In this document: piece after piece, positions 3,355-33,141 of the stretch | Numbering within the stretch: the stretch's first letter is position 1 | Layout: the number at the start of each line of letters is the position of its first letter | From: Desulfotomaculaceae bacterium | GTDB lineage: Bacteria > Bacillota > Desulfotomaculia > Desulfotomaculales > Pelotomaculaceae | Length of the DNA: 41,417 bases | Reading direction: 5' to 3' | NCBI GenBank assembly: GCA_028696455.1 | Contig: JAQVGZ010000014.1 | Location: forward strand, 1-41,417 | The notes under the pieces: model-generated | What the model was told of the DNA's origin: nothing | What the model saw: only the letters and a program-made list of their open reading frames with translations | The model's database searches: none | Position numbers and translations under genes: made by a program

Positions 3355-4260
3355 ATGCAGGATGACAGCCAATACAGGTCTGGTTTTGTTGCGCTGGCGG
3401 GCAGGACCAATGTGGGTAAATCTACTCTTTTAAACAAGCTTGTTGGGCGAAAAGTATCCATTATGTCCGATAAGGTCCAGACAACAAGGAACAAAATCCT
3501 CTGTGTGCTGAGCCGGGAAGACTCCCAAATGGTATTTATAGACACCCCGGGCTTGCACAAGCCGATGCATAAACTTGGTGAGCATTTAGTGCAGATAACG
3601 CTGAATACTCTTAGAGAGGTTGATGTTATTCTTTTTCTAGTGGAGGCAAACCAGCCCCCTGGTCCGGGTGATCACTATCTTATCCGTCAACTGAGCGGTA
3701 TACCTAACCCGGTCTTGCTGGTGATCAATAAGATAGACCTGGTCAGGCGAGAAGAACTATTACCCTTGATCGAAAGCTATGTCAAACTATACAAATTTGC
3801 TGAAATTGTGCCTGTGTCGGCTCTGTCCGGGGAAAACCTCGACCGTCTCCTGGAAGTGTTAACCGGCTATTTGCAGGCTGGGCCTAAATATTATCCCGAA
3901 GATATGATCACTGATAGGCCGGAGGAATTCATAATGGCTGAGCTGATCAGGGAAAAGGTTTTAAGCCTTACCGGTCAGGAAGTGCCGCATTCAGTTGCTG
4001 TAATCATTGAAAATATGCAGGAGCGGCCAAATAACGTGACGGAGGTACAGGCAGTAATTTACACTGAAAGAGAATCACAAAAAGGGATATTAATCGGCAA
4101 GAAAGGTCAAATGCTAAAAAAAATAGGCCGTCTTGCCCGTGAGGACATAGAAAAACTGCTAGGATCAAAAATTTTCCTCAAGCTCTGGGTAAAGGTCAGA
4201 CCGGACTGGCGAGACAAGGAAGCGCAACTCAAAAATCTGGGGTACGGTGATCAATTGTAA
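3355..4260 (+). CDS. era: GTPase Era
   Basis: Ribosome-assembly GTPase that binds the 3' end of 16S rRNA. From ATG 3355 it has 301 residues, typical for Era. G1 is GRTNVGKST (about residue 16; most relatives have Pro where this has Thr). G3 is DTPG (about 63), G4 is NKID (about 125), and a C-terminal KH domain contains GILIGKKGQML. ATG 3355 is preferred over ATG 3331 because AGGCAGGTG lies five bases upstream of it. It is in the same transcription unit as cdd and recO, and works with YbeY encoded nearby in 30S maturation. Confidence 0.96.
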   Translation: MQDDSQYRSGFVALAGRTNVGKSTLLNKLVGRKVSIMSDKVQTTRNKILCVLSREDSQMVFIDTPGLHKPMHKLGEHLVQITLNTLREVDVILFLVEANQPPGPGDHYLIRQLSGIPNPVLLVINKIDLVRREELLPLIESYVKLYKFAEIVPVSALSGENLDRLLEVLTGYLQAGPKYYPEDMITDRPEEFIMAELIREKVLSLTGQEVPHSVAVIIENMQERPNNVTEVQAVIYTERESQKGILIGKKGQMLKKIGRLAREDIEKLLGSKIFLKLWVKVRPDWRDKEAQLKNLGYGDQL

Positions 4261-4325
4261 AAATTATCTAGCAAAATATTATGGGGCATAAGTACTTTTA
4301 GGCTGCTCAAACGGAGTATACGATT

Positions 4326-5087
4326 ATGAAACTATATAAGCTTGAGGCAGTAGTATTACGGGCCAGGGACTGCGGCAACGCGGACAAGCTGTTGGTTATC
4401 TATTCCAGAGAGTTTGGCAAACTAAAATTAATGGCGCACGGCGCCGCCAAACCTGCAAGCCGCAAGCGCGGTTCTGTGCAGCTTTTTGCCCACTCCAAGT
4501 TCCTAATTAACCGTGGTCGTGAGCTAGACTCAATTAGCCAGGGCGAAATAATTGAGATGTTTTCCTCGCTCAGAAACGATCTGGAAAGAATCGGCTATGC
4601 CAGTTACCTGGCCGAGCTGGTGGATGCCTTTGCACCGGAGGGAGAGCCAAATCCAGCCTTTTTTGAACTCATCATTACAACCCTGCGCCTGCTGGCTACG
4701 GAAGATGCCGAGCTGGTAGCCCGAGCCTTTGAAATTAAAGCACTTACCATGCTCGGCTACCGCCCTTCACTGGAGCGCTGCACCCACTGCCGGAGCCCCT
4801 TGTCGGGACATCTCTATTTCAGCCCGGCTGCCGGAGGGGTGCTTTGCGAGGACTGCCGACCGTCCTATCCGGATGCGCGGACCTGCAGCCAGGGTATTCT
4901 GGAACTCATTAAGCTTTTTTTGCGCTGGCGCCCGGTCAGGCTGCGCCAGCTCAGAGTTGACCGCCCTGATCGAAACCTGCTAAAGCTCTTGATGGGTGAA
5001 TTTATCCGGTACCACCTGGAGCGGGAATTAAAATCCGCGGTATTCTTAAGACGTTTTCCCAACGGGGCCGGAAAGACTGGTGTATAA
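4326..5087 (+). CDS. recO: DNA repair protein RecO
   Basis: A 253-residue recombination mediator that with RecR loads RecA onto SSB-coated single-stranded DNA. The N-terminal OB-fold begins with LYKLEAVVLRARDCGNADKL. The C-terminal region contains a zinc-binding C4 arrangement, CTHC followed about 28 residues later by CEDC. The GC-rich second half produces overlapping open frames in other phases, which are shadows. The era-recO order is conserved in Firmicutes. The gap of 65 bases after era shows no terminator. Confidence 0.93.
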   Translation: MKLYKLEAVVLRARDCGNADKLLVIYSREFGKLKLMAHGAAKPASRKRGSVQLFAHSKFLINRGRELDSISQGEIIEMFSSLRNDLERIGYASYLAELVDAFAPEGEPNPAFFELIITTLRLLATEDAELVARAFEIKALTMLGYRPSLERCTHCRSPLSGHLYFSPAAGGVLCEDCRPSYPDARTCSQGILELIKLFLRWRPVRLRQLRVDRPDRNLLKLLMGEFIRYHLERELKSAVFLRRFPNGAGKTGV

Positions 5088-5181
5088 AAGTGACTGATAT
5101 TGGAGTAAATAAAATAAAAGGTAGGGCAACACCAAGGTACTGATTAGGATATTCTTCTAAGAAGAAAGGAACGGTTAAAAG

Positions 5182-5613
5182 ATGAGTGAACTTGAGAAAA
5201 TCGATACTATTAGAAACCGGCTAGGTACCAGCTATAAAGAGGCAAAGGCAGCCCTGGACGCAGCCGGAGGGGATGTGGTCCAGGCACTGATTAGCCTTGA
5301 AGAGAAAAAGCATGAGCCGGTCGAGCGTTACCAGGTCAAAGGGAATGAGCTCCTGGATCAAATCAAAGGTTTGCTTAACAAAGGACAAGGGTACCGGATT
5401 AAGGTCAAGCAGGGCGAGCGGACGGTTACTGAAATTCCCGCCTCAGTTGGTGCACTGGGCCTGCTGGGTGTTCTGGCCAGCAGTCAAATCGCTGTTCTTG
5501 GCGCCCTGGCCTCAGTAGCGGGTATGGCTAATAACTACACCCTGGAGGTAGAGCGCGCCTCTGACTTTAGTAGAGATAAAGATTTTGGGGCGGACAAGGC
5601 AAGCAGCAGTTAA
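5182..5613 (+). CDS. DUF4342 protein with N-terminal UBA/TS-N-like domain
   Basis: A 143-residue protein. Residues 1-40 (SYKEAKAALDAAGGDVVQALISLE) form a UBA/TS-N-like three-helix motif of the type found in EF-Ts. Residues 50-130 fit the DUF4342 family, with a hydrophobic stretch VGALGLLGVLASSQIAVLGA that could be a membrane-associated helical hairpin. The start ATG 5182 has AAGAAAGGAA upstream. It lies between recO and glyQ. Its function is unknown; a peripheral membrane or translation-linked role is only a guess from the domains. Confidence 0.8.
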   Translation: MSELEKIDTIRNRLGTSYKEAKAALDAAGGDVVQALISLEEKKHEPVERYQVKGNELLDQIKGLLNKGQGYRIKVKQGERTVTEIPASVGALGLLGVLASSQIAVLGALASVAGMANNYTLEVERASDFSRDKDFGADKASSS

Positions 5614-5799
5614 TATAATTGGAAATTTCCGTCTCCCGGCATGCTTAGACGTTTACCCTTTGAAGATATATCGGGACCTCTAACTTGAACTGCATCAATG
5701 ATGATGTTTGCTGGCATTGACTTTAACCCGAAGATCTGATAGATTATAACAAAAAGTACTAGAATTAGATGTGAACCACAACAATAAAGCATTTGAAAG

Positions 5800-5843
5800 A
5801 CTCCCGTCTCTGGTAGAATACCGGGGGCCGGGGGTTTTTCTTT
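5800..5843 (+). terminator. GC-rich hairpin with T tract before glyQ
   Basis: Bases 5802-5835 can fold into a long hairpin (arm CTCCCGTCTCTGGT against ACCGGGGGCCGGGGG, with several G-T pairs). It is followed by TTTTTCTTTT. It lies 31 bases upstream of glyQ, so it either ends the upstream operon or works as an attenuator for glyQS. No T-box core (AGGGTGG-ACCGCG) is visible in the 260-base gap. Confidence 0.7.
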
Positions 5844-5873
5844 TATAGAATATGATTTAATAGGAGGCGGCCT

Positions 5874-6755
5874 ATGAATTTCCAGGAGCTAATTATTACC
5901 CTGGACCATTTTTGGTCCCAGCAAAATTGCATCATTTTGCAGCCCTATGATGTAGAAAAAGGGGCTGGTACAATGAACCCGGCTACCTTTTTAAGGGCTC
6001 TGGGGCCAGAGCCGTGGCGGGTGGCTTATGTGGAGCCCTCCCGCAGGCCTACAGATGGGCGTTATGGGGAAAATCCAAACCGCCTGCAGCATTATTACCA
6101 GTACCAGGTTATATTGAAGCCTTCTCCAGATAACGTCCAGGAACTATACCTTGACAGCCTGAAGGCTATCAACATCGACCCGGACGAGCATGATATACGT
6201 TTTGTCGAAGACAATTGGGAGTCTCCAACTCTTGGCGCGTGGGGGTTGGGCTGGGAAGTATGGCTGGACGGTATGGAAATAACTCAGTTCACCTATTTTC
6301 AGCAGTGTGGTGGCATTGACTGCCGGCCGGTCTGCGCAGAAATAACCTACGGCCTGGAGCGCCTGGCCATGTTTATCCAGGGTGTGGACAGTGTATATAA
6401 GATTACCTGGGTAGATGGCATTCACTATCATGATGTCCACCACAGGGGGGAAGTTGAGCATTCCCATTACAATTTTGAACTGGCTGACACAGCGATGCTG
6501 TTTAAGCTTTTTGATTTATACGAGCAAGAAGCTTTAAGAGTAGTTGAGAAAGGTTTTGTGCTTCCTGCTTACGACTATGTGTTGAAATGTTCTCACTCCT
6601 TTAACCTATTGGATGCTCGAAGTGCGATTAGTGTGACTGAACGTACCGGGTATATCTCCCGGGTAAGAAACCTTGCCCGCGCGTGTGCCCAGGCTTATGT
6701 GGAACAGCGTGAAGCAATGGGCTATCCGTTGCTCAAGAAGAAGGGGGCTAAGTAA
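5874..6755 (+). CDS. glyQ: Glycine--tRNA ligase alpha subunit
   Basis: A 293-residue catalytic subunit of the bacterial alpha2-beta2 glycyl-tRNA synthetase (class IIc). It starts with the invariant [17 protein letters not shown]-type N-terminus and contains class II motif regions ([32 protein letters not shown], and QQCGGIDC...EITYGLERL). Charging of tRNA-Gly needs the beta subunit encoded next. AGGAGG is eight bases before ATG 5874. The stop TAA shares its last base with the ATG of glyS (TAATG), so translation is coupled. Confidence 0.97.
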
Positions 6756-23675: not shown

Positions 23676-24479
23676 CTATAATACCGATCTAAGGGTGTCA
23701 CTCCGCAAACCAACGCGTAGGGCTTCCAGGGCGATCACTTCAAAAGGTGGAATATTGCCCATGTTTATGTCCGGTCCATATTCAAGGATAAATGCCTGTT
23801 GCTGCTCTTTTAGCGGCGCCTCCCAGATCAGCCGTTCCGGTTTATCTACGGCTGACAGCATGAGGTTCACATGATTTCTGTCCAAATGTCCCTCCCGGTC
23901 GTATAGTCCAGTATTCATACCTGATTCACGACCCTCAACGATAATATTGGAGGCGCCGTTTTTAAGATCGGCATGTATTTGTTCCAAGGATTTTTCGACG
24001 GGTACCCAGTCCAGCGGGTTTTTTTTCCCTATTTCAGTCAGGACTTTAAACCCAAGGTCTGCCGCTTGGGCTACTGCGCTTGCTCTCACCTCCGGTGGAA
24101 TACTGGCCGTGCCATCCGACACTTCAATGGCTGTGTAGCCCATGGTTTTAGCCATTTTTAAAAACTCTTTTAGCTTATGCTGCAACAGGGCTATTTCCAA
24201 AAACGTACCGCCAGGGTAGATATCTATGCCATAGTTTCTAGCCAGGTCGATTTTTTCATCGAGCACTTTTTGCGGGTACAGGGCGGATGTGCCGAAACCC
24301 AGCTTAATCATGTCGATAAAGGTTCCTGCAGTCTGAAGTAATTCCCTCGTTTCCTCCACACCCAGGCCCTTATCCAGGATCATGGTCAATCCCTTTTGGC
24401 GAGGTTTTTGACTGCGCCCCTGGAGGGGAAATTGTAATAATTCCAACCAATTATTATTAACTGGTTGCTGAGCTTTCAT
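23676..24479 (-). CDS. comA: Phosphosulfolactate synthase (ComA family)
   Basis: A 267-residue TIM-barrel protein of the ComA family, which adds sulfite to PEP to give (R)-2-phospho-3-sulfolactate. Seen are KGLTMILDKGLG, IDMIKLGFGTSALYP, IEVSDGTASIP, the conserved lysine region VLTEIGKKNP and VEGRESG. The ATG at 24479 has GAGAGGAG eight bases upstream; the open frame runs further to 24542 without a ribosome site. In archaea this starts coenzyme M synthesis. In Bacillus the homologue YitD is linked to sulfolactate in spores, which fits a spore-former better. No phosphatase or dehydrogenase of the pathway is adjacent. Confidence 0.88.
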   Translation of the reverse strand: MKAQQPVNNNWLELLQFPLQGRSQKPRQKGLTMILDKGLGVEETRELLQTAGTFIDMIKLGFGTSALYPQKVLDEKIDLARNYGIDIYPGGTFLEIALLQHKLKEFLKMAKTMGYTAIEVSDGTASIPPEVRASAVAQAADLGFKVLTEIGKKNPLDWVPVEKSLEQIHADLKNGASNIIVEGRESGMNTGLYDREGHLDRNHVNLMLSAVDKPERLIWEAPLKEQQQAFILEYGPDINMGNIPPFEVIALEALRVGLRSDTLRSVL

Positions 24480-24651
24480 TCGAATACTCCTCTCCGGCCT
24501 CTTTGTCGGCCTCTCAAAAAAATACCGACTCCCTCCCTCCATTGGATCATGGCGAGGCAGTTCTTGCCATTATTGTATTCTTCAATATTTAGAAAGTTGC
24601 TGCTTTGTTCAAAATAAGTATTGGAGGATTAGCCTCCATGCCATAAGGGGC

Positions 24652-25935
24652 TTAGCTTTCAGGCTTTTTAGCTGGTTCCGGGGTAAATTGAAGAACTTTC
24701 CCACTCTCTTTTTTTGTCCTTGCGGCACTCTGCCCCTGGGTATCTGCGCTTTGAGTTTTGATCAAAAACAAGGCAATTGCAGCGGTAGCGAGGGCAAGTG
24801 CGGCTGAACTCCAAAACATCAGACCGGTACTTTTAGCCATCAGGAAACCATATAGAGGAGGGCCAAAGGCCACACCAAAAAACCTAACGCTGCCATATAG
24901 TGAGGTAATCATGCCGCGCTCCTCCCTGGAGGCGGCGCTGGTAATCAAATTATTCAGGCAGGGCAGGGCGAGGCCGGTGCCGATGCCGATAATGGATATA
25001 GCAATGAAATAAATAATGACGCCCCCTGCCAGAGGTAGAAATGCGAGTGCGGCAGTCATGATCACCAGGCCAGCCACTACCAGAGTCTTCATCAGGGACT
25101 TCTTCTTTTTGATGATGAAGCCGGTAGCAAAAGATGTAGCGCTCATAAACAGCACTGGGATAGCCAGGACCAGGCCTTTATTTACACCATCCAGGCCAAA
25201 CTGTTGCTCCAGGTATTCCGAAAGATAGAACAGCACCCCGAATAGGACCATTAAAACAACTGCTCCGGCCAGGTAAGAGGACAGCAACAACCCCGCTTTA
25301 TTCTTAAAAACTGTAGTAACGGATTTCAGATATTCGGATATCTTTTGTTGGGATTGGCCGGCTTGGGGTTCTTCAACCAGCCGCCACATTGCGATCACCA
25401 CGGGGATAACAATTACGGGAAAGAAAAAAAAGGCGGCATACCAGGTAATCATTCCGATAGCGGCGCCTAGTATCGGGCTGACCACCTTGCCCAGGCCATT
25501 GGAAGACTCAATCGCCCCTAAAGAGCGGCTGCGCTTTCTTCCCTGATAGAGGTCACTGCATAGGGCCATAGTGATCGGCGCTGTTCCAGCCGCCCCGATT
25601 CCTTGCAGCACCCTACCAGCCAAAATTACCGGAAAAACATGTTCTTTTAAAAACACTGAGGCAAAGGCGGCAAGTAACCCTCCCAGGCCGTAAATAATGG
25701 TGGCAGGAATAATGACTGCTTTCCTGCCAAAATGATCCGATAAAAAGCCGGCTACAGGAATAATGATGCCGGCAGGCAACGAAAATAAAGTGATCAGTAA
25801 ACTAATATCAATTGCGCTTAGGTTCAAAGCATTTCTTATATCGGGTAAAACAGGGATGAGCATGGAGTTCCCCAGAACCATGATAAACGGTACTCCTGAC
25901 AGCGCCGCTACGGTCAGCCAGAATTTTTCTTTCAT
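24652..25935 (-). CDS. MFS drug/proton-type exporter (DHA1-like)
   Basis: A 427-residue major facilitator with 12 predicted helices. The N-terminal half carries the antiporter loop motif GFLSDHFGRKAVI and the motif C-like region LGAAIGMITW; the tail of about 30 residues is hydrophilic (Lys/Glu/Gln-rich). The substrate is unknown. It is transcribed away from the dehydrogenase gene and toward comA, from which it is separated by 172 bases. It could export a sulfonate or a drug; nothing in the sequence decides. Confidence 0.88.
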   Translation of the reverse strand: MKEKFWLTVAALSGVPFIMVLGNSMLIPVLPDIRNALNLSAIDISLLITLFSLPAGIIIPVAGFLSDHFGRKAVIIPATIIYGLGGLLAAFASVFLKEHVFPVILAGRVLQGIGAAGTAPITMALCSDLYQGRKRSRSLGAIESSNGLGKVVSPILGAAIGMITWYAAFFFFPVIVIPVVIAMWRLVEEPQAGQSQQKISEYLKSVTTVFKNKAGLLLSSYLAGAVVLMVLFGVLFYLSEYLEQQFGLDGVNKGLVLAIPVLFMSATSFATGFIIKKKKSLMKTLVVAGLVIMTAALAFLPLAGGVIIYFIAISIIGIGTGLALPCLNNLITSAASREERGMITSLYGSVRFFGVAFGPPLYGFLMAKSTGLMFWSSAALALATAAIALFLIKTQSADTQGQSAARTKKESGKVLQFTPEPAKKPES

Positions 25936-26069: not shown

Positions 26070-27179
26070 ATGAGAAAGTTAAAAGTTGGTATCATCGGTG
26101 CGGGGATGGCTTTTGAAAAATTGCATCATCCAGCCTACCAGGAGCTTACGGATAAATTTGAAATAGCTGCCATTTGCGATCTGGACCCGGCCAAAGCTAA
26201 TTTCTGGGTAAAGAAATTGCACCTTGCCCAGGAAAAAGTATATTCTGAATACCGGGGCATGGTGGTTAGGGACGACATTGACATCATTGATATTATGGTC
26301 CCAATCGAGCTGAATTATAAGATTACAAAGGATGTTGCCGCCCTCGTGGCAGGCACAAAAAAGTGGATCATTTGTGAAAAGCCGCTGGCCTCAACCATTG
26401 AAGAGGCAAAATTAGCGAAGGAATTACCTGAAAAATATCATGTTCCCATCCTGATTGCGGAAAATTACCGGTATAATGAGGAAACAAACATCATCAGGGA
26501 CTATGTTAGGGAAAAAAGAATTGGTGATGTTTTATACTTTGTGCAAAACAGGGTAGTGAATTTCCCCGAAGATATGACCGCCAACAAATTTCCGTCCACC
26601 GAGTGGCGCCAGTATCCGGAATTTCCCGGAGGCGCCATTTTAGATACAGGTGTTCATGATATCGCCGGCTTAAGGCACATTTTTGGGGCTATTGAGAAGG
26701 TCCAGGGTTTTGGTTATCCCCAGGAGTATGAATTTGCGCCCTATTCGGTAATTTGTGTGAACATGCTTTTCAAAAGCGGTGTAATCGGCCAATTTTCTTT
26801 TTATTGCAGCGGGAAGGAAATGCAGAGGCCGCTGGTTGGCTTGCGGATATTTGGTAACAGAGGCATGATCTTTTTGGAAGAAAGGGACTGCGGAACAATA
26901 AATATCGCTTACAATGACGGAACTTTTGAACAAATAGCTTACCGGCCGCAGAGGGGGTACTATAACGAACTGCTAAACTTATATAAGGCTGTCGCTGGCG
27001 AGGAGCCAGTTTCCGTCACTCCTGAAATGGAATTTGGCGACACTTACACGATATTCCAAATACTAAAGTCAATTAGTGGAGAGGAAACGCTGCCGGTGGA
27101 CTTGGAAGTGGATTATATTCCGGCCTATGGCGCCGCCCGTAGGGCACAAGCAGACAATAGCCGCTACCTGCAACATTAA
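26070..27179 (+). CDS. Gfo/Idh/MocA-family NAD(P)-dependent oxidoreductase
   Basis: A 369-residue protein. The N-terminal Rossmann fold (KVGIIGAGMAFEKLHHPAY, then ICDLDPAKA) and the conserved EKPLA motif (residues about 107-111) identify the family, whose members oxidise or reduce sugar and inositol derivatives. The C-terminal alpha/beta domain contains GGAILDTGVHDIAGLRHIFG, with the usual active-site Asp/His. The substrate is unknown. AAGAGGTGACC precedes ATG 26070. The gene converges with the broken ThDP enzyme gene; the two overlap by 4 bases at their 3' ends. Confidence 0.9.
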   Translation: MRKLKVGIIGAGMAFEKLHHPAYQELTDKFEIAAICDLDPAKANFWVKKLHLAQEKVYSEYRGMVVRDDIDIIDIMVPIELNYKITKDVAALVAGTKKWIICEKPLASTIEEAKLAKELPEKYHVPILIAENYRYNEETNIIRDYVREKRIGDVLYFVQNRVVNFPEDMTANKFPSTEWRQYPEFPGGAILDTGVHDIAGLRHIFGAIEKVQGFGYPQEYEFAPYSVICVNMLFKSGVIGQFSFYCSGKEMQRPLVGLRIFGNRGMIFLEERDCGTINIAYNDGTFEQIAYRPQRGYYNELLNLYKAVAGEEPVSVTPEMEFGDTYTIFQILKSISGEETLPVDLEVDYIPAYGAARRAQADNSRYLQH

Positions 27180-28102
27180 GTTACTTGATTCCTGGGCAAC
27201 TCAATATCAGCGCAAATTACCTCTAATAAAGCAGGTTTACCGGAATCGAGGGCATGGCGGACGCTGCCCACAATGTCTGCCGGACTTTCGACAAGGTAAC
27301 CTGCTACACCGCAGGACCTGGCAAGCCGGACAAAATCAGGTGTAATCAATTCATACCCGAAAGGGGTAAATCCTTCGGAGAACATTTTGTTCTTTTCTAT
27401 GCTGTAAACACCGTTTTTTACAACAATAATGGCGATGGCCAGGTGGTAACGCACACAGGTGAGAAGTTCGCTCATAGATGAGATGAAACCACCATCTCCC
27501 ACGATAGCCATAACCGTTTTTTCCGGGCAGGCTAATTTAGCCCCGATGGCAGCTGGAAGGCCGCAGCCAATGCTCCGCCACTTGCTGGAAAGCAGTAACT
27601 CTTGCTGTTGCCCCGGAAACCCAAGGTCGAACCAGTGGTTAAATTCACCAGTGTCAAGGGCTATAAGGGCATCAGCCGGTACCAGGTCCTTGAGGGCTGC
27701 CATTAGCTGCAGTGGGTGAATAATCTCGGTATCGTGGCCTGTTCCCCGGGTTAGCTGCTGTTTTCTTTGCCTTGCCGCATCTTTGATGGCCGTTAGCCAT
27801 TCCTGATTCAACGCCTGGTTTTCCAAATCTTGCAGTAAAGCTCCAATGATTGCGTTTAAATCCCCGGTCACACTAACTACCGCATTAGTATAAATATTTT
27901 CAGACCGGTCACTGATATGGACCACAGCTGTGCTTTGCGGGAAAAACATCTGCTCATATGCAGCTTCCCCGATAAGAATAATGCAATCCGCTTCTTGAAT
28001 AGCCTCGGGAAGGAACCCTGCCTCCAGACCTCCTAGATTCAGCTCATGTCGGCCGTCAATAGCCCCTTTAGCTTCCTGGGCCAAGACCAGGCCCGCCCCC
28101 AT
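27176..28102 (-). pseudogene. ThDP-dependent enzyme, C-terminal two-thirds (frameshifted from upstream half)
   Basis: This frame encodes the central nucleotide-binding-like domain and the C-terminal thiamine-diphosphate domain of a pyruvate oxidase/acetolactate synthase-type enzyme. GDGGFISSMSELL and, about 25 residues on, KNGVYS correspond to the GDG...NN cofactor motif, with Lys in place of the first Asn. The frame is open as far up as 28126 and continues the N-terminal half in the -1 phase. ATG 28102 has no ribosome site and falls inside the family fold, so it is not a natural start. It is probably a single-gene remnant of about 530 residues, not a separate subunit. Confidence 0.8.
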
Positions 28103-28116
28103 TCTTTCAGCAAGTT

Positions 28117-28779
28117 TTAGACCTGGCTAGTTACCGTTTTTGACTGCCGCCCAAGAACTACCAGTGGCTTATGAAAGCATCGGGTGGCGTCTAGAATCTT
28201 TTCAATGTTGCCGGTAACCGGTGGCGTGGTTTTTACTTCCACGTAATCAACCGGTACGATTTCAGACGAGATAGCTTTTGTGAAAATATCTTTAGGAATG
28301 GAGATATGCCCGGTAGTAAAGTGCAGGTAAGCATACCGCACCGTTGCTATAAGTTCCCTGGTAACATTAGCCGGATCGATAATAATAGCGGAGCGTCCGG
28401 AAAAGGTCCTAAACAAGGCCTGCTGGTCAAAGTACTGTTTTGTACCGGTGCCCATTTTTTTAGTTTCCAGTTGGCCGGTAATAGCCAGAACGGGGACCCC
28501 GTCCATGAAGGCGTCAGCCAGGCCGTTCAGCATGGTTACCGCACCCGGCCCCGCCCCGGTGGCGCATACGGCTATCTTGCCTGTCACCCGGGCCTCATAG
28601 GAAGCCATAAAAGCGGCGCTGTCCTCCCGGGTGGCGGCTATGAATTTTATTTTGTCCTGGCGGGCTATGGCGTCAAGCAAGGGAAAAATTGCATCACTGA
28701 GTACACCATAGATCCTTTTTACTCCCCACTCAGCCAGTTGTGCTAAAACCAGGTCAGCGACATTTCCGTTAATAGGCAT
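28117..28779 (-). pseudogene. ThDP-dependent enzyme, N-terminal third (frameshifted)
   Basis: The N-terminal PYR domain of a pyruvate oxidase/acetolactate synthase-type protein. GVKRIYGVLSDAIFPLLDAI is followed by ATREDSAAFMASYEA with the cofactor-activating Glu, then GAGPGAVTMLNGLADAFMDGVPVLAITGQ. The frame ends at TAA 28117-28119 directly after KPLVVLGRQSKTV, where relatives continue into the middle domain. The start ATG 28779 is preceded by AAGGGA. The enzyme reaction cannot be fixed: pyruvate oxidase-like is closest, and a sulfopyruvate decarboxylase is less likely because that enzyme lacks the middle domain. Confidence 0.8.
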
Positions 28780-28937
28780 CCTGCGACATCCCTTCATTAA
28801 CAATTATCCAACATTCGTCCAAGATATTGTTAATAGTATTGATAGTGCTTATTTTACCAGGCATTGATATTAATTATCCATTAAGAATAATAACCTGAAG
28901 CCAGGATAAAATAAAAAAAAGTGCAGGAGGTGGAAAA

Positions 28938-30966: not shown

Positions 30967-31617
30967 CTAGTCCGCAGAGGCAAGAATATGAACGTCTTCA
31001 ATCCGGACATGAAATCCGTGGCTTTTCTTTAAAACCATATTAACTAGTCCAGTGTGGTTTAAGTCCATCATGCAGAAGCCTGGTAGGAAGGTAGCCCGGG
31101 AGCCAGGCACGGGTTCTTTATTTATTTCATCAGCAATGCCTTCAAAACCAATCATGTGGTAGGCTATCACGTCTTTGACCTCCTGATTTCTAGAGTAAGC
31201 GGGTCCTACCACCCAGGTGTATAACAACCCGGTAACCTCTTCAGCCTTGATTACTTGCAGCACATGGGGAATCGGGCACCCAGCCCCCATTGGACGCCCC
31301 AGGACGTAGTCCCCTTTGCGGATGTTCATTTTTTCAACCATATCACTGCGGAAGGGCAGGACTATTTTACGAGCAGAGATCTCACCCGGCAAAGGACTCA
31401 GAACAAAGTCGTATTGATGGCCTAAAATATCAATACCTGAATAAATAGCTTCATGCACCTGGTTTACGTTTCGGCTGCAGTTCTCTCCCTGGTAAAAAGG
31501 GCAGTCTGCATAAGCTTTTTGCCCGTTGTTAACCATGCGAACAAAGCTTTTGCAATTAATTTCACCACAAAGGCCGCAGTTTTTCCCCGGGGGGAGCCAA
31601 TATTGTGTTGAATGCAT
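30967..31617 (-). CDS. Fe-S cluster protein with N-terminal PF04060-like domain
   Basis: A 216-residue soluble protein. The N-terminal motif Cys14-x2-Cys17-x4-Cys22-x16-Cys39 (NCGLCGEINCKSF ... DCPF) fits the four-cysteine 4Fe-4S domain found in corrinoid Fe-S proteins and RnfB, with Cys47 close by. The rest (residues 60-216) is not a fold I recognise; it has Cys114 in MGAGCPIPH and Cys182 in PGFCMMD, which could be further ligands. It starts at ATG 31617, with GGGGTGA overlapping the GTPase stop two bases upstream, so translation is coupled. It is the last gene of a three-gene operon. Confidence 0.75.
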   Translation of the reverse strand: MHSTQYWLPPGKNCGLCGEINCKSFVRMVNNGQKAYADCPFYQGENCSRNVNQVHEAIYSGIDILGHQYDFVLSPLPGEISARKIVLPFRSDMVEKMNIRKGDYVLGRPMGAGCPIPHVLQVIKAEEVTGLLYTWVVGPAYSRNQEVKDVIAYHMIGFEGIADEINKEPVPGSRATFLPGFCMMDLNHTGLVNMVLKKSHGFHVRIEDVHILASAD

Positions 31618-31619
31618 AT

Positions 31620-32330
31620 TTATTCACCCCGGTACATATAATCGGCGATTTGACCGTCAAGTTTTTTTACAACCCCAAAATGGTGTTTCCAGCCAACTTC
31701 TTTCTTGCCTACACAAATTGTACACGTCCCGATGGGTGGATTCCCTTTCAGGTACAAGTTGTTTTGCTCAATGTCTTCCGATTCGCTGATCAGCCCGTAA
31801 AGGCGGTGCAGGGAAGTGCCCTGCAGGGCATTTGTTTCCATTAGGATCACGTGCGGGTGGACCTCTTTAATTTTTTGGATCAGGACTTCCCGCTCAGCCT
31901 GGCTGACCAGATCTATTTTAGTAACTATGGCAATATCGGCCAGGCTGACCATAGCCCCCATCTTTTCGGGGGCGTGTATTCCTGAAATAGAACTCAGCAC
32001 AACCACCCCCAGGCCCTGGTTTAGGTAAGGTGAACAGCGCAGGCACAGGCCGGCGCTTTCCACAATGAAAAGGTCGGCGGACTTGCTTTGTGCCCAATCG
32101 ACAGCGTCACCCAGAACCATTGCCCCGGCGTGATCGGGGCACAGGTCGCCCGAATAAATCTTTTTGGTCATGATGTGAAATTCTTTGCCTAATTCAATAT
32201 CCTCATAGGCTTTGACCACATCTATCTTCAAAAAAGCAATTCGCATTTCATCTTTAAATCTTTTGACAATTTGTTTGGTAAGAGCTGTTTTACCGGCAGA
32301 TGGCGGGCCGGCTATGACCAAAAGCTTCAA
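31620..32330 (-). CDS. HypB/UreG-like GTPase (putative metallochaperone)
   Basis: A 236-residue P-loop GTPase of the SIMIBI class. Walker A is GPPSAGKT (residues 8-15). GDLCPDHAGA (Cys64, His67) occupies the place of the metal-binding GxxCHLDA of HypB. VESAGLCLRC (Cys96, Cys99) replaces the ENVGNLVC motif, and TKID is the G4-like motif at 137-140. The C-terminus adds an unusual CTIC pair (Cys203, Cys206) and HH at 216-217. The start is TTG 32330 behind GGTGAAA. In HypB, UreG and CooC such proteins insert nickel; a metal-insertion role is inferred here. No hydrogenase, urease or CODH is in the window. Confidence 0.8.
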   Translation of the reverse strand: MKLLVIAGPPSAGKTALTKQIVKRFKDEMRIAFLKIDVVKAYEDIELGKEFHIMTKKIYSGDLCPDHAGAMVLGDAVDWAQSKSADLFIVESAGLCLRCSPYLNQGLGVVVLSSISGIHAPEKMGAMVSLADIAIVTKIDLVSQAEREVLIQKIKEVHPHVILMETNALQGTSLHRLYGLISESEDIEQNNLYLKGNPPIGTCTICVGKKEVGWKHHFGVVKKLDGQIADYMYRGE

Positions 32331-32361
32331 TAATTTTCACCGCCCGGCTTTAATTATTTAA

Positions 32362-33141
32362 TTACGCAAAGCTTACGTGAAGCAGTTCACTAGTAATTTC
32401 ATGCCCCGCCCTTAACTTTTCCCTGATTAACCCGACCCGCTTATCCAATTCAAGGAGATTTTCAGCAGTCCGGGTTTCAAATTCATTCTGGTTAAGGACT
32501 CTTATTACCGCACCGTTTTCCATAATAATACGTTTCTTAGTGAGAAGGGCTATTACCGGGTCATGAGTGACAAATATGATTATTTTAGATGTGTTTTTGA
32601 TGATTTCTATAACTTCCTGTTTAAAAATGCCTGCATTTTCAATCTCATCCAGCAAAATTACCGGTGCGGCGCCTATTAAAATAGCATCGGCAATTAATAG
32701 GGATCTAGTTTGCCCACCGGAAAGAACAGTTACTTTAGTATCTTTATTAATTTTTTCGCCGGTGAATTTATTGGCCAGATCGATGGTTTCCATAATTATT
32801 CTTCTGTCTTCAATTTTTCGGGAACGGGCGTGGATTTGTAAAAATTCCTCAGTGCTTAAATCAGTAAAACATTTGGTATTTTGGGTAATCATCGATATCG
32901 GCTTAGATGCAGGATTATATCTTATCTCGTCACCTGGCAGTGTCCCATTGATTAGTACCCTGCGCTTGGTGGATGTGTCACCCTGGGCCAATAGCTCAAT
33001 GTCGGAGATGAGAGCGGTTTTCCCACTTCCCGTGGGACCGACAATAGAAACTGTTTCCCCAGGATACAAATTTAATTGATCAAATTGTTCTCTGTTGCCG
33101 CCTTTATCTAGCCCAGGTAGAATTGTAATTACTTTAATCAT
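32362..33141 (-). CDS. Orphan ABC-type ATPase
   Basis: A 259-residue single ABC nucleotide-binding domain. Walker A is GPTGSGKT (35-42), the Q-loop is Gln87, the signature is LSGGQ (140-144), Walker B is ILLDE (162-166) and the switch is His193. No permease or binding protein is encoded nearby, so it may work as a soluble ATPase. The ATG at 33141 is chosen because AAGGAG lies in front of it. A GTPase gene follows after 31 bases and an Fe-S gene after that, all in one direction. An energy-driven step in cofactor or metallocentre assembly is plausible but unproved. Confidence 0.82.
   Translation of the reverse strand: MIKVITILPGLDKGGNREQFDQLNLYPGETVSIVGPTGSGKTALISDIELLAQGDTSTKRRVLINGTLPGDEIRYNPASKPISMITQNTKCFTDLSTEEFLQIHARSRKIEDRRIIMETIDLANKFTGEKINKDTKVTVLSGGQTRSLLIADAILIGAAPVILLDEIENAGIFKQEVIEIIKNTSKIIIFVTHDPVIALLTKKRIIMENGAVIRVLNQNEFETRTAENLLELDKRVGLIREKLRAGHEITSELLHVSFA

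Follow-up and report, generated by a model that had tools for sequence, protein, structure and literature searches.

The three adjoining genes at positions 30,967 to 33,141 of the stretch of DNA analysed here (41,417 nucleotides from a Desulfotomaculaceae bacterium, referred to below as the window) raise the question of which pathway is served by an ABC ATPase, a HypB/UreG-like GTPase and an Fe-S protein encoded together. The window comes from a genome of 2.7 Mb, and its closest relatives among public contigs are Pelotomaculum assemblies. All genes of the trio are on the reverse strand. The first encodes the ABC ATPase (33141-32362, 259 amino acids), the second the GTPase (32330-31620, 236 amino acids, TTG start) and the third the Fe-S protein (31617-30967, 216 amino acids), with intergenic gaps of 31 and 2 bases, respectively. 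An intrinsic terminator, consisting of a hairpin of 11 pairs (-22.1 kcal/mol, z -4.0) and a U-run, was found on the same strand at 30961-30936, and a promoter scan gave counts at background level. The original prediction of three coupled genes with these gaps and with their own terminator was therefore right. Elsewhere in the window, two adjacent reading frames were observed at 27176-28803 on the reverse strand. As the part at 27176-28102 covers no more than the C-terminal half of TPP enzymes of the acetolactate synthase/pyruvate oxidase kind, this gene looks broken, either by a frameshift or by a sequencing error.

The ABC protein matched PF00005 with 60 bits, over the Pfam cut-off, and its Walker A, Q-loop, LSGGQ, Walker B (LLDEIE) and H-loop motifs were all found. 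The catalytic motifs were invariant in 17 sequences of bacteria and archaea. The ATPase is of the soluble type and no permease gene adjoins it, as had been predicted. The GTPase matched PF02492 (HypB/UreG/CobW nucleotide-binding domain) with 46.3 bits against a gathering cut-off of 20.7, and its best full-domain PDB sequence matches were HypB/UreG structures. It stayed below the cut-offs of both the HypB equivalog TIGR00073 (66.4 of 121.2 bits) and the UreG equivalog TIGR00101 (28.5 of 204.2 bits); indeed, none of the three proteins reached an NCBIfam equivalog cut-off. The cysteine and histidine residues originally named in the GTPase are all present. In an alignment of 27 sequences, with identities down to 37%, C64, H67, C96, C99, C203, C206 and H217 were invariant, so that only one of the two extra histidines is conserved, H216 being variable.

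The Fe-S protein consists of an N-terminal four-cysteine [4Fe-4S] domain (C14, C17, C22 and C39), which matched PF04060 with 33.1 bits against a cut-off of 23, followed by a beta domain. The N-terminal domain also matched the corrinoid Fe-S protein (CFeSP), with 32-37% identity over about 37 residues. In the AlphaFold2 model of the protein (pLDDT 85.5), the beta domain gave no match with E <= 0.001 in a Foldseek search of the PDB, and its best VIA-align Z was 5.3 over 64 residues, which may reflect only a common beta arrangement. The description of a four-cysteine domain joined to an unrecognised one thus held. Alignment of 45 sequences, with identities down to 31%, revealed as invariant cysteines and histidines the four cluster residues and a second set, C114, H118, C182 and H188, located in the beta domain. 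This second site points to a metalloprotein type that has not been described. From its context and homology, the Fe-S protein would belong to COG2000. The trio thus combines two nucleotide motors with at least three candidate metal sites.

The distribution of the trio was studied next to its composition. The three genes were found together at about 80 bacterial and archaeal loci, nearly all in the same order. In the class of the window, the Fe-S protein is encoded in 16 other genomes (69-88% identity), always adjoining the ABC gene, and adjoining the GTPase gene too wherever the assembly allows it to be seen. Among 84,980 species scanned, 56 trio loci were found. Their bacterial hosts were Pelotomaculum, heliobacteria, Thermincola, Dethiobacter and many uncultured Clostridia, and their methanogen hosts (49-58% identity) Methanofollis, Methanospirillum, Methanocorpusculum, Methanosarcina and Methanimicrococcus. 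The order ABC-GTPase-FeS was kept in all loci uncut by a contig end or an N-run, with the exception of one (L070) that starts with the Fe-S gene. This recurrence in order, in the same class and in the 56 loci, is not due to chance, and it bears out the expectation that the trio would be found jointly in other genomes. In the tree of the GTPase, the Clostridial sequences grouped apart from those of methanogens (89/86 support). In a sample of 129 genomes of an archaeal phylum, the Fe-S protein was encoded in 31, some of which form a divergent group of about 32% identity, and the archaeal homologues were about 31-62% identical to the proteins of the window. All three genes were adjacent in 28 of the 30 archaeal loci examined; the other two (L209 and L210) contained only the GTPase and Fe-S genes within the stretch examined.

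Several individual loci deserve mention. In L023 (genome G108), an in-frame internal deletion at 1327-1593 has removed most of the trio, leaving a natural scar of the whole module, with the first ABC codons (1 to about 59) running directly into the final 30 of the Fe-S gene. The loss of the GTPase gene considered for G098/L063 is only apparent, as an N-run and not a deletion is found there. One contig filed as Bacilli (L075) carries a trio and a coenzyme M (CoM) operon nearly identical to those of Methanocorpusculum and is probably mis-binned archaeal DNA.

The neighbourhood in archaea had been noted before. Chadwick et al. (2025, PMC12068725, Fig 2) showed genes for an ATPase, a Ni-binding GTPase and a COG2000 Fe-S protein of methanogens as "often colocalized with CoM biosynthesis", giving no role for them. 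The archaeal association is consequently not new; the trio originally said to belong to no named system matched indeed no named maturation system, but it was already in the literature on methanogens. In methanogens, the trio lies immediately upstream of the coenzyme M biosynthesis genes. At the archaeal loci studied first, MMP16 (TIGR03287), cysteate synthase (TIGR03844) and ComDE come after the Fe-S gene, frequently without any gap. The gene after the Fe-S gene was MMP16, cysteate synthase or ComD/ComE in 22 of the 30 archaeal loci (14, 1 and 7, respectively), and in the other eight none of them was found within 1.5 kb. Where MMP16 is the next gene, its start often overlaps the stop of the Fe-S gene. 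The divergent archaeal lineage, with an Fe-S protein about 32% identical to that of the window (L211-L222), has separate ComD and ComE genes after the Fe-S gene in seven loci; in the remaining ones, the next 1.5 kb contain no CoM gene.

In bacteria, the trio is linked to ComA. The window itself encodes this phosphosulfolactate synthase at 23676-24542 on the reverse strand (TIGR03849, 338.5 bits, cut-off 280), 6.4 kb downstream of the trio, on its strand and outside its operon. The same arrangement was found in three relatives (L031-L033). This ComA is likely the functional partner of the trio, so that the client is not simply encoded elsewhere, as had been thought. Adjoining ComA, at 24652-25935, and also kept in the three relatives, there is an MFS-type transporter which possibly exports sulfolactate. 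A five-gene operon ComA-ComB-ABC-GTPase-FeS was identified in three further genomes (G227, G480 and G427; L170-L172), while another (G278, L168) shows ComA, an N-gap in the place of ComB and then the trio, and in G368 the ABC gene follows ComA at a distance of about 135 bp. Physical linkage of ComA and the trio occurs, altogether, in three bacterial families.

Co-occurrence agreed with this linkage. In a phylum sample of 398 genomes, a ComA match was present in 25 of the 26 genomes with the trio and in 109 of the 372 others (p 6e-12); this tally includes 134 of the 135 ComA-positive genomes, and one of the 25 matches (G347), interrupted by a contig end, scores below the cut-off. At family level, with the total number of families inferred from the listing, ComA was found in 11 of 12 families with the trio and in 47 of 126 others (p 3e-4). 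Both statistics could be inflated by shared ancestry and by an anaerobic lifestyle. Five additional bacterial genomes with the trio all encoded ComA, this number being the 12 bacterial entries, all positive, minus seven which contig coordinates identified as repeats of genomes already counted. The trio was found without ComA in G167, the only such case in the phylum sample, and in UBP3_UBA6266. In the former (L176), the trio at 4243-6417 adjoins a YqeG phosphatase and shikimate genes; in the latter (L070, 913-5094), the reordered trio lies in a PseC/PseG-like sugar gene cluster. The CoM genes beside the trio in methanogens and its tracking of ComA/ComB in bacteria indicate that its partner pathway is sulfonate synthesis, and lend no support to a nickel or corrinoid client as originally proposed. 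We regard the link to the sulfonate pathway as well supported. The analysis showed the operon, its co-conservation, the invariant ligands and, in two domains of life, the linkage to sulfonate genes. As far as the literature shows, the bacterial distribution, the operon with ComA/ComB and the sulfite inference discussed below are new, and they widen the archaeal observation to bacteria without CoM genes. As many bacteria carry the trio without CoM genes, its role is not about coenzyme M alone.

The enzymes of coenzyme M synthesis were then considered as the client. No match to ComDE (sulfopyruvate decarboxylase, TIGR03846) over the cut-off was obtained in 39 bacterial genomes bearing the trio, the archaeal controls being positive. 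The main rival to the reading proposed below is that the trio matures COG1900 sulfurtransferases, for instance by installing a metal or Fe-S centre; these would be MMP16, the coenzyme M synthase, in archaea and L-aspartate semialdehyde sulfurtransferase in bacteria. It explains the archaeal gene order, with MMP16 directly after the Fe-S gene in the 14 loci mentioned, and fits a certain enrichment of COG1900/HcyBio proteins in genomes with the trio (19 of 26, against 115 of the 372 others in the phylum sample). However, it does not explain the bacteria without COG1900: no such protein was found in seven of the 26 trio genomes, heliobacteria among them, which rejects COG1900/HcyBio as the sole general client. 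In addition, HcyBio is present in those 115 genomes that have no trio and in 107 of 113 genomes of the class of the window regardless of it, the only COG1900 protein of the window genome reached just 126 bits against the MMP16 cut-off of 364, and the operon partners in bacteria are ComA and ComB. We therefore consider COG1900 maturation quite unlikely. Lack of ComDE, together with the seven genomes without COG1900, argues that the client is neither CoM synthesis nor its last enzyme.

What remains in common is the input. ComA joins sulfite to phosphoenolpyruvate (PMC3087415) and cysteate synthase joins it to phosphoserine (PMC12713407); with ComDE and COG1900 set aside, sulfite is the common input. 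If the trio supplies it, genomes with a route from sulfate to sulfite should be able to do without the trio. The sulfate enzymes were compared in 80 genomes picked to cover families, a sample in which ancestry is uncorrected. Of the 26 trio genomes, 2 have ATP sulfurylase, compared with 31 of the 54 genomes with ComA and no trio (p 2e-5; 2.5e-4 when the class of the window is left out). By a hand count, again uncorrected for ancestry, which combined ATP sulfurylase, CysD, CysH and AprA-like matches, a plausible route from sulfate to sulfite was found in 4 of 26 and about 33 of 54 genomes, respectively (p 1e-4). This is only a trend and strict mutual exclusion of the trio and sulfate reduction was rejected, since there are exceptions both ways: about four trio genomes (G123, G158, G172 and G435) encode sulfate activation and an APS/PAPS-reductase-like protein, about 21 of the 54 genomes with ComA and no trio have no route from sulfate to sulfite, and in one family (f36) the trend is reversed. 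The trend is consistent with the sulfite reading and is no proof of it. UDP-sulfoquinovose synthase was also considered as a third sulfite-user, beside the reordered trio of UBP3_UBA6266, and was rejected: the dehydratase-like neighbour matches dTDP-glucose dehydratases and epimerases, with no sulfoquinovose synthase among the matches listed.

All these results lead us to propose, with confidence a little short of even, that the trio is one module for sulfonate biosynthesis which most likely provides sulfite, or enables an enzyme to provide it, in anaerobes unable to make sulfite from sulfate. The sulfite would be supplied to ComA in bacteria and some methanogens, and to cysteate synthase in other methanogens. 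The GTPase would take up a metal through its Cys/His sites and, under GTP control, load it onto the Fe-S protein at its C2H2 site (C114, H118, C182 and H188). The soluble ABC ATPase, by analogy with SufC or the MCR-activating A2, might use ATP to open or energise the Fe-S scaffold and so power an assembly or redox step, with the [4Fe-4S] domain moving electrons. The product would be sulfite or an active sulfite-forming enzyme. Sulfite as the point of action, the metal concerned and the order of these steps are what we infer, and the ATP- and GTP-driven metallocentre machine originally proposed stands as a conserved unit with such parts and as a plausible machine, while its corrinoid or nickel client found no support.

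Almost all biological methane formation depends on coenzyme M, whose synthesis in turn requires sulfite. By following both sulfite-using routes in two domains of life, the trio makes the question of the sulfite source of methanogens testable. In methanogens that live on sulfide, this source is unsettled: oxidation of sulfide by Dsr-like proteins has been suggested, but some methanogens lack them (PMC3448663), and the step has been described only as "hypothesized" (PMC5116941). A bolder proposal is that the trio is itself the missing anaerobic sulfite-forming system of methanogens and non-sulfate-reducing Clostridia, that is, a GTPase-loaded and ABC ATPase-driven metalloprotein oxidising sulfide or other reduced sulfur. 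No recognisable catalytic chemistry for sulfide oxidation was found in the trio and we consider this proposal unlikely.

Sulfite or sulfonates could also be handled otherwise, the trio protecting or delivering sulfite, or acting downstream on sulfolactate or cysteate, and not making sulfite. The same linkage to ComA and CoM genes fits this possibility, and an inhibitory effect of sulfite on methanogenesis has been described (PMC3448663, PMC5116941). Nevertheless, a shared downstream substrate is unlikely because the ComA and cysteate routes proceed by different steps from there on, and sulfite detoxification should bring no preference for genomes that lack sulfate reduction; we find such a role rather improbable. 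Less probable still is the earlier reading, in which the trio assembles a nickel or corrinoid enzyme whose gene lies elsewhere. The GTPase resembles HypB/UreG and the four-cysteine domain resembles the corrinoid Fe-S protein, but none of the genes seen to recur beside the trio was a hydrogenase, CODH, urease or corrinoid gene; those identified are sulfonate genes. Finally, the trio might have an unrelated role and accompany ComA only because their hosts are alike in being anaerobes and Clostridia exchange genes. This would suit the patchiness of both in anaerobic Bacillota and the two trio genomes without ComA, but it is very unlikely given the family-level association and the fact that sulfonate genes are physically linked to the trio both in three bacterial families and in methanogens of a different sulfonate pathway.

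Comparison of the trio with known systems revealed partial likeness to several of them. The GTPase shares the G domain with HypB and UreG, and its invariant C64, H67, C96 and C99 are candidates for a metal site like the one that HypB has near its switch regions, as originally suggested. However, it falls under both equivalog cut-offs, lacks the N-terminal nickel motif and has the extra C203-x2-C206 and H217, and no hydrogenase or urease partner was seen nearby. Likewise, the Fe-S protein has the PF04060 four-cysteine cluster domain of the CFeSP large subunit and RnfB, while its remainder is a different beta domain and no corrinoid-binding domain was found. SufBC and the A2 ATPase of the MCR activation complex combine a soluble ABC ATPase with a metallocluster protein and have no permease. 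By analogy, the trio may be of this kind, although it differs from SufBC in an Fe-S partner that is not SufB-like by sequence and in the additional GTPase. The closest counterpart is the trio published for methanogens (PMC12068725): the three protein types match, and the archaeal homologues of the window proteins adjoin MMP16, cysteate synthase and ComDE. In contrast, in the window and its bacterial relatives no ComDE over the cut-off was found and the trio is accompanied by ComA, and often ComB, instead.
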